Below, piece after piece: positions 430 through 45,611 of a DNA stretch of 56,118 nt. The position numbers and the translations under genes are program-made. Below the pieces are notes generated by a model. The model was not told the origin of the DNA and ran no database searches. It saw only the letters and a program-made list of their open reading frames with translations. Position 1 is the stretch's first letter. Each line of letters starts with the position of its first letter. Origin of the DNA: an uncultured Bacteroidales bacterium (GTDB taxonomy: Bacteria; Bacteroidota; Bacteroidia; Bacteroidales; CAIWKO01); contig CAIWKO010000008.1 of assembly GCA_903913285.1 (NCBI GenBank), positions 1 to 56,118 on the forward strand, read 5' to 3'.

Positions 430-706
430 GAATTTTGGCCAATGTTGATGAACATTGAACCAATGTTGATAGATTTTGGCGAAAGTTGATGAACATTGAA
501 CCAATGTCGATAGATTTTCGCGAATGTTGATGAACATTGAACCATTGTCGATAGATTTTCGCGAATGTTGATAAACATTGAACCAATGTCGATAGATTTT
601 CGCGAATGTTGATAAACAATGAACCAATGTTGATAGATTTTGGCGAATGTTGATAAACATTAAACCATTGTCGATAGTTTTTGGCCAATGCAGATAGTTT
701 TTGGCC
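430..706. repeat. 41-bp tandem repeat array, about 6.5 copies
   Basis: Units begin at 440, 481, 522, 563, 604 and 645, exactly 41 bp apart, with a shortened copy from 686 and a partial copy before 440. Most units carry the inverted repeat AATGTTGATRAACATT. Each unit can be split into two related halves that both start AATGTYGATA, so the basic period is about 20.5 bp. Because 41 is not a multiple of three, all minus-strand frames stay open and produce repetitive pseudo-peptides; these are not genes. Confidence 0.92.
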
Positions 707-31957: not shown

Positions 31958-32015
31958 AAATACGACTGTATTTGGTTTAAATACGACTGTATTTTGTCTA
32001 AATACGATCGTATTT
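31958..32015. repeat. Three phased 16-bp palindromes, 21-bp period (operator-like)
   Basis: AAATACGACTGTATTT at 31958-31973 and 31979-31994, and AAATACGATCGTATTT at 32000-32015, are spaced exactly 21 bp apart. The third is a perfect palindrome; the other two differ from it at the centre. A 21-bp step is two helical turns, so all copies face the same side of DNA. Binding of a dimeric regulator is an inference. Confidence 0.85.
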
Positions 32016-32159
32016 GAACAAAAACCAATTTACATTGATAAAAAATTATTTGTATTAACTTCAATACGAGGACAAATTGGCAGTTTATGATCCTATTTTA
32101 TCTTAATGCTCATAAAATTCAGAAGAAGTATCCCGATCCATAAATCCATTTCAAATTAT

Positions 32160-41587: not shown

Positions 41588-41720
41588 AAATATTTGTATG
41601 CAGCTAATTTAGAAAGTAATTACAATAATATCGATTCCGTTCATTGAACAAAATTAATACTTAATTTTACAAATAAATATAAGTACATTCAAAAACAGTA
41701 AATTTGCAAAAAAATTGATT

Positions 41721-43451
41721 ATGAGTATTGAATTTAGCGAACAGGAACAGATCCGCCGTCAATCGTTGGAAGAACTTTATAAACTCGGGATAAACCCTTA
41801 CCCCGCCGAATTGTTCGAAATAAATGCAACCGCTACCGAAATTCTGGAAGACTTTCCGTCGAACACCCACATGTTTCAGGATGTAAAAATTGCCGGCCGC
41901 ATTATGAGCCGACGCATCATGGGAGCTGCTTCGTTCATCGAACTGCAGGATATTACAGGAAGAATTCAGCTATATTTTAAACGCGACGATATTTGCCCCG
42001 GTGAGGATAAAACCATGTATAATACGGTGTTCAAACATCTGCTCGATATAGGCGATATCATAGGTGTAAGCGGTTTTGTGTTCATCACACAGATGGGCGA
42101 AACCACCATCCATGTGCGCGAATTCAAACTGCTGAGCAAATCGCTGCGCCCCTTGCCTATCGTGAAAGAAAAAGATGCCGTGGTTTACGATGCATTCACC
42201 GATCCCGAGCAACGCTATCGTCAGCGATATGTCGACCTGATCGTGAACCCCGAAGTGAGAAAAACCTTTGTGAAACGTGCTGCCATCCTGAATTCTATGC
42301 GCCAGTTCCTGAACGGAAAAGGATATCTGGAAGTGGAAACCCCGGTGTTGCAGCCCCTGTATGGCGGAGCTGCCGCGCGTCCTTTCAAAACCCATCATAA
42401 CGCCTTGAACAGCACCCTGTATCTTCGCATCGCGAACGAACTCTATCTGAAACGCCTGATAGTGGGTGGCTACGATGGTGTGTTCGAGTTTGCCAAAGAT
42501 TTCCGCAACGAAGGCATGGACCGCTTCCACAACCCCGAATTCACGCAGATGGAACTATACGTGGCCTACAAAGACTATGAATGGATGATGAACCTGGTGG
42601 AGGAGATGGTTGAAAACGTGGCGCTGAGCACCAACAAAAATACAAAGATCACAGTGGGCGAAAACACCATCGATTTCAAGCGTCCGTGGAAACGCTTCAC
42701 CATGTATGAAGCCATTGAGCATTATACCGGCATCGATATTTCGAAGATGGATGAAAAACAACTGACCGAAACCGCCAAAAAACTGGGTGTGAATGTTGAC
42801 GATTGCATGGGAAAAGGCAAACTCATTGATGAAATATTCGGCGAAACCTGCGAGCCCAAACTGATACAACCCACCTTCATCACCGATTATCCGGTTGAGA
42901 TGTCGCCTCTGGCAAAGAAACACCGCACCAAGGAAGGCCTCGTAGAACGTTTCGAAGCCATTGTGAACGGTAAAGAACTCTGCAACGCCTTTTCGGAACT
43001 GAACGACCCCATCGACCAGCGCAATCGTTTCGAAGCGCAACTGGAACTCGGCAAACGCGGCGATGAAGAATCGATGGTGCTCGACGAAGATTTTCTGCGT
43101 GCTTTGGAATTCGGCATGCCGCCCACGGCTGGTTTGGGAATCGGTATCGACCGCCTGGCAATGATCATGACCAACTCGCACTCCATTCAGGATGTGCTTT
43201 TCTTCCCGCAGATGAAACCCGAAATAAAATCACTGGCAAGTTCGGTCGACGATTTTGTGGCCAAAGGCATTCCGGCCGAATACGCACAACTCGTCATGAA
43301 ATCGGGATTCACCACCCTCGAATCATTGAAAACCGCAACACCCAGCAAACTGTTCAACGATATTTGCGGCTTGCGCAAAAAAATGAAACTCGACATCAAA
43401 GCCCCTTCAATTGATGATGTGACCACTTGGGTTGCCAATGCAGGAAAATAA
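41721..43451 (+). CDS. lysS: Lysyl-tRNA synthetase, class II
   Basis: 576 residues from ATG 41721 ([16 protein letters not shown]); a TTG at 41715 is the only alternative. An OB-fold anticodon-binding domain ([22 protein letters not shown]) precedes the class II core, with [16 protein letters not shown] (motif 2) and [11 protein letters not shown] (motif 3). About 75 residues at the C-terminus (after FFPQMKPE) form an extension with a helix-hairpin-helix-like [21 protein letters not shown], typical for Bacteroidota LysS. TAAATTTG at 41699-41706 is 14 nt before the ATG. Much higher GC than the efflux genes to the left. Confidence 0.96.
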
Positions 43452-43576: not shown

Positions 43577-44860
43577 ATGCATCCTAAAATTCCTCCCTAT
43601 CTTTTATATGCCGACGACAAAGGACAGATCTTCGAAGACCGTTCGTTGCTGGTGGCCGGGAGGATAGCTGTCGACACCGTTCGTATTCCGGCCAAAGATT
43701 TTATTTCCTTGCCCGAAGGCAGCGATTTTTTTCATCTGCCCGGCAGGCTTGCCGTGGGCTACGACCCCAAAACCAGGGAGTTTCGCGTATGCCGGAAAGG
43801 TTGGGCCGTGGCGGCTTTTGTAGCTCCGGCCTACACCCTCACCCATCAGGCTGCCTGGATCACCGAAGCCGATGCACCCCGGCTGCCGCTATATGCTTAT
43901 GCCGCCATCGGCTGGACCGAACAAGGTTTCTACACCACCGCTTTCCGCATCGACCCCGACATCCGTCAGGATTGCAACCAGTTTAACCAGGTATATGTTG
44001 AGAAAAATGCCAAACTCATGCTCAAAGCCAACACCGACAACCGTTTGCTGAAGCATCTGTCTGACTGCGCCTTGGTATATCTGTGCCCGGCTGCCCGCAA
44101 CTATTTCCTCAACCGCTGGGAGGCGCCCCTGCCCACTTCGCCCACCTGCAACTCACGCTGCGTAGGCTGCATATCGTTTCAACCCAAAGAACACGAAATC
44201 TCTTCCACACAAAACCGCATCACCTTCACTCCCACTCCCGAAGAAATTGCCGAACTGGCCGTGGCACATCTCGAAACGGCTCCCAACCCCGTGGTTAGTT
44301 TCGGTCAGGGCTGCGAAGGCGAGCCGCTGCTGGTGTGGCAAACCCTGCGCGATGCCATCGTGCTCATCCGCCAACGAACCCAAAAAGGCATCATCAACCT
44401 CAACACCAACGCCAGCAAGCCCGAAGCCGTGGAAGCCCTGTGCAAAGCAGGTTTGCAAAGCATACGTGTGAGCATGAACAGCGTTCAGGAAGCAAATTAC
44501 TTGAGCTATTACAAACCTGTGAAATATTCGTTTGCCGATGTGTTGCAGAGCATCCGCACCGCCCGCAGCCATGGCATCTGGGTTTCAGTCAACTATTTCG
44601 TTTTTCCGGGTTATACTGACGAAGCTAATGAGGTGAGCGCCCTGCGCCGTTTTATTGCCGATTACGACATCAGCATGATACAATGGCGCAATTTCAATAT
44701 CGACCCCGAATGGTATGCCGAAATTGTTCCACCTGCCCAACCGGCGAGCTACACGGGCGTGAAACATTTGGTTGACGGGCTGCGCAAAGAATTCCCCAAG
44801 TTGTATCACGGGTATTTCAATCCGGGAAGCGAAATTATTTTTCACCACAACGACAAGTAG
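43577..44860 (+). CDS. Radical SAM protein with an N-terminal domain of unknown function
   Basis: 427 residues. About 190 residues with no clear family (LLYADDKGQIFEDRSLLVAGR, GWTEQGFYTTAFRID) precede the radical SAM domain. CNSRCVGC (about residues 191-198; CxxxCxxC) binds the 4Fe-4S cluster. VVSFGQGCEGEPLL is the GxE-type SAM motif and INLNTNASKPEAVEALCKAGLQSIRVSMNS the barrel strand for substrate. The product is not predictable. No cognate peptide or partner enzyme is next to it. High GC like lysS. Confidence 0.85.
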   Translation: MHPKIPPYLLYADDKGQIFEDRSLLVAGRIAVDTVRIPAKDFISLPEGSDFFHLPGRLAVGYDPKTREFRVCRKGWAVAAFVAPAYTLTHQAAWITEADAPRLPLYAYAAIGWTEQGFYTTAFRIDPDIRQDCNQFNQVYVEKNAKLMLKANTDNRLLKHLSDCALVYLCPAARNYFLNRWEAPLPTSPTCNSRCVGCISFQPKEHEISSTQNRITFTPTPEEIAELAVAHLETAPNPVVSFGQGCEGEPLLVWQTLRDAIVLIRQRTQKGIINLNTNASKPEAVEALCKAGLQSIRVSMNSVQEANYLSYYKPVKYSFADVLQSIRTARSHGIWVSVNYFVFPGYTDEANEVSALRRFIADYDISMIQWRNFNIDPEWYAEIVPPAQPASYTGVKHLVDGLRKEFPKLYHGYFNPGSEIIFHHNDK

Positions 44861-45299
44861 AATCGTATTGATTTATATTTTTTTATAATGTGTTTGATGG
44901 AAAAAATCAATAACTTTCGATTTCCAATTAGGATTAATCACTGTATATTAAAATTTATTGAATCCTTGTAAATAAATGTATTTTAACGTGTTGTCACTTC
45001 TACATTGACCTTCGACATCTCTACATTGACCTCTGACACTTCTACATCGACATTCGACATCTCTACAATGACCTTCGACAGTTCTTCATTGACCTTCGAC
45101 ATTTCTACATCGACCTTTGACAGTTTTACATTGACCTTGGGCATCTTAACATTGGCCTTTGACATTAATTCATTACAAAGGGAATTATCGAATCTTTATC
45201 CACAAAATAAATGAACAAAAGTTTTGGCTAATAATGCTGAATGATTTCAAAAATAATGCTAATTTTGAGGGAGGAATTATTATACAAACACCCCTGACC
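44861..45299. other. AT-rich intergenic region containing the 21-bp array
   Basis: No gene is evident in this 439-bp gap. It holds the eight-unit 21-bp repeat array (44998-45165) and a TAATTTTG box at 45260-45267, 32 nt before the small lipoprotein gene, without a fitting -33 element. The open frame running through from 45159 lacks a supported start. Confidence 0.6.
44998..45165. repeat. 21-bp tandem repeat array, eight copies
   Basis: Eight units begin at 44998, 45019, 45040, 45061, 45082, 45103, 45124 and 45145, with consensus TTCTACATTGACCTTCGACAT. As 21 is a multiple of three, the minus strand reads as a heptad repeat (MSKVNVE type) of 60 residues, a by-product of the period. On the minus strand the units share AATGTCGA with the 41-bp array near 440-700. 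Confidence 0.93.
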
Positions 45300-45611
45300 A
45301 TGAAACCCCCGAAACTTATACTAACCCTGCTGATCATTATAATGCTTGCAGCTTGCAAAAAAGACAGCGCTATATCATCCGTTACAGGCCAACTAAAAAA
45401 CCTCACAGGTTTGGATGGCTGCGGATGGGTTATCTATTTAGACAAAACCAACGCCGATGGATATTCAAAACTTGAACCAGGCAACCTGAACGACTTCACG
45501 GTAACCAAAACCGACGGGCAAAAAGTTGAGCTGACTTACAATGCAACAAACTCGGCTAGCGTTTGCATGGTCGGTCAAGTAGTAGATTTGACCATGATAC
45601 AGGATAAATAA
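45300..45611 (+). CDS. Small hypothetical lipoprotein
   Basis: 103 residues from ATG 45300. MKPPKLILTLLIIIMLAAC is a lipoprotein signal with Cys19. The mature part (TGLDGCGWVIYLDKTNADGYSKLEP) and the ending VCMVGQVVDLTMI form a small beta domain known in hypothetical Bacteroidota lipoproteins. Function unknown. It is followed at 18 bp by the YD-repeat gene, which probably reads through from the same promoter. Confidence 0.8.
   Translation: MKPPKLILTLLIIIMLAACKKDSAISSVTGQLKNLTGLDGCGWVIYLDKTNADGYSKLEPGNLNDFTVTKTDGQKVELTYNATNSASVCMVGQVVDLTMIQDK

Follow-up and report, generated by a model that had tools for sequence, protein, structure and literature searches.

Among described systems, BrickBuilt of Porphyromonas gingivalis is a minisatellite/MITE with one 23-nt repeat and small inverted-repeat ends, present in 19 copies in one strain, according to the parts of its description drawn on here (PMC4596501), and it is mentioned again in a passage of PMC5771137. 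The archaeal Borg repeats are, in the sections of their account used here, perfect copies, with 43-65% located in ORFs and 14-38% of the intergenic unit lengths divisible by 3 (PMC9879509). A prokaryote survey was based on tandem repeats with units of 1-11 bp and on spaced direct repeats, and its excerpted results give longer-oligomer intergenic repeats as over-represented in some genomes (PMC4060949).

The arrays analysed here resemble BrickBuilt, as far as the excerpted description goes, in being intergenic, spacer-free, dispersed tandem repeats of variable copy number in Bacteroidota, in a few cases with leader and tail segments; unlike its single 23-nt unit they measure 21 bp and have many unrelated units, and unlike its ends they showed no inverted repeats in the one pair examined, with leaders or tails for few arrays and not for most of 136 flanks (PMC4596501). 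Within the same partial compass, they are like the Borg repeats in comprising many arrays of essentially unique units, in apparently independent formation, in fast evolution and in being restricted to particular genomes, but their copies are imperfect (77% matches in the window array; 58-95% over 55 intergenic 21-bp arrays), they are mostly intergenic with a sharp peak at 21 bp, and their units are mostly unique, with some unit families common to several arrays (PMC9879509). The survey sections agree with our data in the over-representation of intergenic tandem repeats and report no 21-bp class (PMC4060949), and a literature search covering largely open-access titles and abstract openings found no account of an intergenic class at 21 bp. 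Sequence is what usually defines a bacterial minisatellite; here an estimated 150 or so arrays agree in length and not in sequence, so that spacing is separated from sequence, and phase, a copying step and descent can be directly tested against each other. In uncultured Bacteroidota, such arrays could reveal an architectural DNA-binding protein or a new kind of amplification.

The window, by which we mean the whole stretch of 56,118 nucleotides of contig CAIWKO010000008.1, contains the following features.

432-690, plus strand: 41-bp array (6.3 copies) that contains half-repeats at distances of 20 and 21 bp (TRF; self-identity 0.44 at lag 20 and 0.45 at lag 21)
31958-32016, plus strand: short 21-bp array of 2.8 copies with palindrome-like core AAATACGACTGTATTT (TRF)
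43577-44860, plus strand: gene for a radical SAM protein on the left side of the array (Pfam PF04055)
44976-44997, minus strand: tail GTGACAACACGTTAAAATACAT, directly after the last unit (pattern search with two degenerate positions)
44983-45165, minus strand: ATG-to-TAA open frame of 60 codons that runs through the array and is not considered a gene (six-frame reading; class-wide coding test negative)
44998-45165, minus strand: eight tandem 21-bp units, consensus ATGTCGAAGGTCAATGTAGAA (TRF and unit listing)
45300-45611, plus strand: gene for a small lipoprotein-like product on the right side of the array, without a Pfam match

The initial annotation had described eight 21-bp units at 44998-45165, and its coordinates, copy number and period were all correct (8 x 21 = 168 bp), as was the minus-strand unit, ATGTCGAAGGTCAATGTAGAA. 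TRF called this block (the window array) at period 21 with 8.0 copies, 77% matches, 0% indels and a score of 191, and also at higher-order periods of 42 and 63 bp with scores above that of the 21-bp call; self-identity over 44991-45166 was 0.76 at lag 21 vs. 0.15-0.40 at lags 5-20. A CRISPR array was ruled out by the head-to-tail arrangement of the 21-bp units without spacers. No terminator was found at the array. Six sigma-70-like sites were counted there vs. a shuffle mean of 2.8 (sd 1.8), and this kind of promoter may not be relevant here. The RNA-structure z scores of the array were +1.2 and +1.4 on the two strands. Searches of the window against Rfam, for tRNAs, and against plasmid and phage collections returned no match. 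Borg-type repeats lie on a linear extrachromosomal element; among the genes of the window are one for a DNA polymerase I family protein and one for a class II tRNA synthetase, a content that suggests a chromosomal location. The synthetase (41715-43451) belongs to the D/K/N group and has a DUF4332 domain at its C-terminus. The best reading of the window array is a decayed, non-coding minisatellite, one among many 21-bp arrays of the genome.

A core shared with the 41-bp array had also been proposed, and this claim survived only in part: AATGTCGA is present in both arrays, with two copies in the window array, one in unit register and one not, and two in the 41-bp array, of which six full units were listed, but the link is weak and no core is common across arrays. 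The shorter ATGTCGA occurs four times in the window array. Words of at least 8 letters were common to 78 of 2,701 unit pairs vs. about 45 in shuffles, so an 8-letter word in two units is not rare; for words of at least 9 letters the figures were 32 pairs vs. 11.7. As far as shared words can tell, the tie between the two arrays is no stronger than that of many other array pairs.

We searched for four TGTCGA at 21-bp spacing, with up to 3 mismatches, in the genome that holds the window (G000) and three others of its genus (G001, G002 and G003). G003 is apparently the public assembly Kiruna_bin-04925, judging by a match of identical place, E-value and score for the genome of locus L072. Repeats with this pattern were found in G000 on contigs C8 (the window array), C32, C45 (two arrays), C15 and C51, and elsewhere on C163 of G002 and on C23, C163 and C198 of G003; C334 and C509 of G002 each gave a single 3-mismatch match, and there was none in G001. 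The reversed control also matched (once in G000, eight times in G002 and 16 times in G003), so match numbers alone are no evidence, and the named arrays were confirmed by TRF. Outside arrays, TGTCGAAG occurs in only two copies in 115,476 non-coding bases; the core is therefore neither a background word nor a general genome repeat. The TGTCGAA subfamily is real and limited to a handful of arrays, with TGTCGAAG as the core of that one subfamily only, and the C51 units and some of those in G003 diverge past the core. The expectation that the whole family would share the AATGTCGA core was thus not borne out: across the class most units are unrelated in sequence, and no motif is common to all arrays.

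The family itself, intergenic arrays near multiples of two helical turns, does exist and is far larger than could be seen in the window; further arrays with the core were found and the periods cluster, which leaves the family unrefuted. Arrays were counted when at least 60 bp long, with a TRF score of at least 60, outside ORFs of at least 120 aa (picked mechanically); these counts omit arrays called coding, of which G000 has seven of period 21, some in short, mostly-repeat ORFs. Within 907,587 bp of G000, partly stretches chosen for arrays, 37 of 50 intergenic arrays had periods of 20-22 or 41-44 bp, and 31 had a period of 21, 42 or 63. The latter three periods accounted for 6 of 11 intergenic arrays in G002 (102,569 bp), 20 of 36 in G003 (291,874 bp), 1 of 5 in G001 (186,543 bp), 0 of 6 arrays in 20 other genomes of the order (337,706 bp; at most 20 kb each, two below 1.3 kb) and 3 of 14 in 79 Bacteroidota loci around an orthologous gene (1,333,780 bp). 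Part of the G000, G002 and G003 stretches had been selected for TGTCGA arrays, and those contigs were dropped to give an unchosen subset. There, period 21 or 42 was found in 16 of 29 intergenic tandem arrays in 411,842 bp of G000, or 39 per Mb (95% interval 22-63), on contigs that came from chance-level matches and were unselected for arrays, yet were no random draw; the corresponding counts were 8 of 13 in G003 (101,070 bp), 4 of 6 in G002 (73,156 bp) and 0 of 2 in the third same-genus genome, G001 (166,543 bp). Extrapolation to the 4.0-Mb G000 gives about 150 21-bp arrays (about 90 to 250). As a share of non-coding bases, 21-type arrays made up 5.3% in G000, 10.9% in G002 and 8.6% in G003, again in partly chosen stretches.

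Beyond the genus, a 2.1-Mb Chitinophagaceae MAG (G065) had intergenic periods of 21, 22, 42 and 63 in 64,628 bp, including these arrays.

L128:2132-2376: intergenic array, 42 bp
L259:12419-12667: intergenic array, 21 bp
L260:11282-11694: intergenic array, 63 bp

Locus L128 had been picked for its array; without it, the other 60,000 bases still hold three arrays, and this MAG may represent a second lineage that has the trait independently. Intergenic arrays in G066 (one, of period 21) and G067 (periods 7 and 21) were found on picked loci only, and G064 had a single intergenic array (period 45) and G029 none. In our samples only some members of one genus, and possibly a second lineage, have the 21-bp trait.

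The period distribution, which is observed directly, was narrow. Pooling G000, G002 and G003 gave 97 intergenic arrays, 55 with a period of exactly 21, one of 20 and two of 22, so that 55 of the 61 arrays with periods of 15-27 were at exactly 21. Between 24 and 62, 13 of 19 periods fell at 41-43 (p = 6e-11 vs. a uniform spread), with four at 41, two at 42 and seven at 43. Periods of an odd number of turns were nearly absent (10 once and 32 once among the 97). Apart from these groups, only heptamers were numerous (12 of 97 pooled; 10 of 48 in the unchosen stretches of the three genomes, the second commonest period class). Because 41 and 43 are multiples of neither 3 nor 7, codons or heptamers cannot explain both period groups. 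Alignment of 45 arrays to their own consensus gave 1,581 substitutions vs. 50 indel events, with zero indels in 32 arrays, and aligned intergenic DNA of G002 and G003 gave 36 substitutions and 5 indels (Fisher p = 0.01 vs. arrays), a weak comparison in that TRF favours indel-free arrays and the neutral ratio comes from 5 indels in 421 bases; the low indel ratio favours conserved spacing in arrays. Among individual cases, an array of TCAATGACCA in G003 (L071:10066-10258) was called at periods 10, 21, 32 and 53, near successive multiples of 10.5 bp, and some heptamer arrays (in G000, e.g., L060:6341-6430 and L059:14376-14450) have a 21- or 42-bp higher order.

Our leading interpretation, to which we assign a probability of roughly 40%, is that the fixed length is set by helical phase, with the units held in a two-turn register. 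It is favoured by a second period group that spans 41-43 and is not exactly 42, by the near absence of odd-turn periods and by the lack of sequence conservation. Unequal exchange or conversion would replace the inner units together, and the sequence would thus diverge fast while the spacing stays at 21 bp, or two turns; the 41-43 bp group would correspond to four helical turns. The register would be kept since units would have to share one helix face, and in the simplest form the array would be a ladder for a putative protein that wraps DNA or binds side by side with little sequence preference. The initial annotation had suggested that a nucleoid protein might bind such repeats or that they might act as insulators, both of which are putative roles. 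The more far-reaching version, that much intergenic DNA in one lineage of Bacteroidota has been remodelled into sequence-indifferent two-turn ladders as a scaffold for a putative chromatin-like, phase-reading protein, we consider unlikely.

Several points count against helical phase. Once a period exists, exchange between units preserves it without selection. There is no universal motif, 43 is commoner than 42 as a basic period (7 vs. 2) and the heptamer arrays are left unexplained. Nor were units more curved than permuted ones: scored with a rough wedge table, 52 arrays had a mean z of -0.23 (SE 0.14) for intrinsic curvature and a net bend of 0.69 vs. 0.80 for permuted units, and 21-bp periodicity alone roughly doubled the net bend over an aperiodic shuffle (0.36). 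Heptamer or half-turn (10/11-bp) inner substructure gave no signal in 52 units.

Two alternatives each explain most of the facts that helical phase explains and are nearly as likely. The first, possible if somewhat improbable, is an amplification process peculiar to the lineage that advances by about 21 bp at a time, through slippage, template switching or staggered cuts spanning two turns, and that would make neutral, decaying arrays out of any intergenic sequence. Units that are mostly unrelated and an array GC of 0.15 to 0.63 speak for it, as do the restriction of the trait to some sampled genomes, perhaps plus the distant G065, and the frequency of 42- and 63-bp higher-order units among the arrays. 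Borg elements likewise form unlike arrays independently, in the portion of that account used here (PMC9879509). Gain or loss at orthologous gaps also fits, and presence and absence there were observed directly: between orthologous flanks, the radical SAM gene is followed by the 21-bp array in G000 and by a different 43-bp array in G002 and G003, and the gap after the G001 orthologue has no array. A 19-bp word of the array at 31958-32016 forms a 9.4-copy array at L206:858-1054 of G000, within a gap of about 568 bp that separates aligned blocks; the counterpart gap in G003 measures about 78 bp and has no array. Against a fixed step stand the periods 41, 43 and 22, which are not its multiples. 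The occurrence of one tail or leader beside unlike units also speaks for elements that disperse and turn over, not for arrays that keep arising anew.

The second alternative, which we regard as doubtful, is that the register was inherited from a few mobile leader-array-tail founders, similar to BrickBuilt, with exchange altering the sequence and not the register, so that no selection on phase would be needed. Tails shared by arrays of differing units are again a direct observation. C45a and C51a have different units and a common 37-bp tail at 97%; the 21-bp core of this tail has three places in G000 within 3 mismatches, the third at C23:62329, and none in G001 to G003 at that threshold. The window array and C45b have a common tail and a similar outermost unit. 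With two degenerate positions and up to 3 mismatches, the GTGACAACACGTTAAAATACAT pattern has two places in the 4.0-Mb genome, each with 0 mismatches, vs. one match for its reversed control; a near-identical tail (two letters different) follows the 21-bp array of unit AAGTGTCGAAGGTCATTTCCA on C45 of G000 at about 205243-205491, the leftmost unit of which is, by eye, closer to the window-array units than to its own neighbours. Two G003 arrays with one unit (L069 and L070) have a common tail and a common left flank, 95% over 82 bp. This leader (72-82 bp) has six copies in G003, and 62-72 bp of it has two copies in G002, with no match at E 0.001 in G000 or G001. Three copies were read, each downstream of a same-strand gene and followed by 21-bp units and a tail.

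L069:9656-9737: leader copy
L070:7951-8032: leader copy
L030:1406-1467: leader copy

The upstream genes differ among the three. The remaining copies are on contigs C49, C179, C77 and C39 of G003 and C529 of G002. The leader starts, by eye, with a terminator-like hairpin followed by a T run, the hairpin being incomplete in L070, and one G002 copy consists of leader, about three units (by eye; no TRF call) and tail. Close to the leader element on C334 of G002, two more 21-bp arrays of 7.7 and 2.8 copies (L030:2532-2692 and 2705-2762) lie inside a short mechanical ORF. Common tails and leaders beside differing units indicate that at least some arrays are dispersed elements in which unit and copy number change and 21 bp stays. 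Word sharing above shuffles (at least 9 letters) also agrees with inheritance from founders. Against it stand the very wide range of array GC, the distance of G065, the lack of terminal inverted repeats by eye in the L069/L070 element, the only pair examined, and the comparison of 136 flanks, which gave few pairs above 30 bp apart from overlapping neighbouring arrays, as follows.

G000, L061 with L200: 69 bp, 88%
G002 L236 with G003 L219: 76 bp, 88%
G002 L236 with G003 L223: 37 bp, 86%
G003, L169 with L173: 46 bp, 87%

A motif common to the array flanks was rejected, the top words coming mainly from neighbouring arrays of one cluster.

By direct observation the class lacks a coding signature. 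Among 34 arrays of at least 5 units and no indel, 30 had an open frame vs. 29.3 expected, codon-phase bias reached p < 0.05 in only two, and in four each of the six frames was interrupted by a stop; both the window array and C45a had looked coding at first, and coding for heptad proteins was rejected as a class property. That the arrays are genes for small heptad-repeat proteins, with 7 codons to each 21 bp, is therefore highly improbable: the 60-codon minus-strand frame of the window array and a second array ending with the same VTTR-stop speak for it, but the class-wide test of 34 arrays was negative (single translated arrays remain compatible with it), the common tail runs on beyond the stop codon, and neither 41 nor 43 bp is divisible by 3.

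RNA structure gave mean z scores of -0.42 and -0.44 on the two strands, and 11 of 45 arrays scored below -2 on one strand or both; at most a minority of arrays may be structured as RNA. Gaps with arrays lay between 27 co-directional, 21 divergent and 8 convergent gene pairs vs. 81, 41 and 22 for array-free gaps of at least 250 bp, with no clear orientation bias.

Some arrays look palindromic by eye, and dyad symmetry was not enriched, at 2 of 61 units with p < 0.05 (coding-called arrays included; no mean was taken and one z was undefined). Homotypic operator clusters consist of helically spaced copies of one site. The palindrome-like array at 31958-32016 could resemble such a cluster, but the class differs from it in having no common site and no enrichment of dyads. 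This block, which the initial annotation had picked out, is real (2.8 copies of 21 bp by TRF), and its three palindrome-like units lie between divergent genes for a 959-aa Sacsin/HATPase-domain protein and an AIR-synthase-like protein. Near the 41-bp array, the window also contains a perfect (CT)20 dinucleotide run at 767-806.
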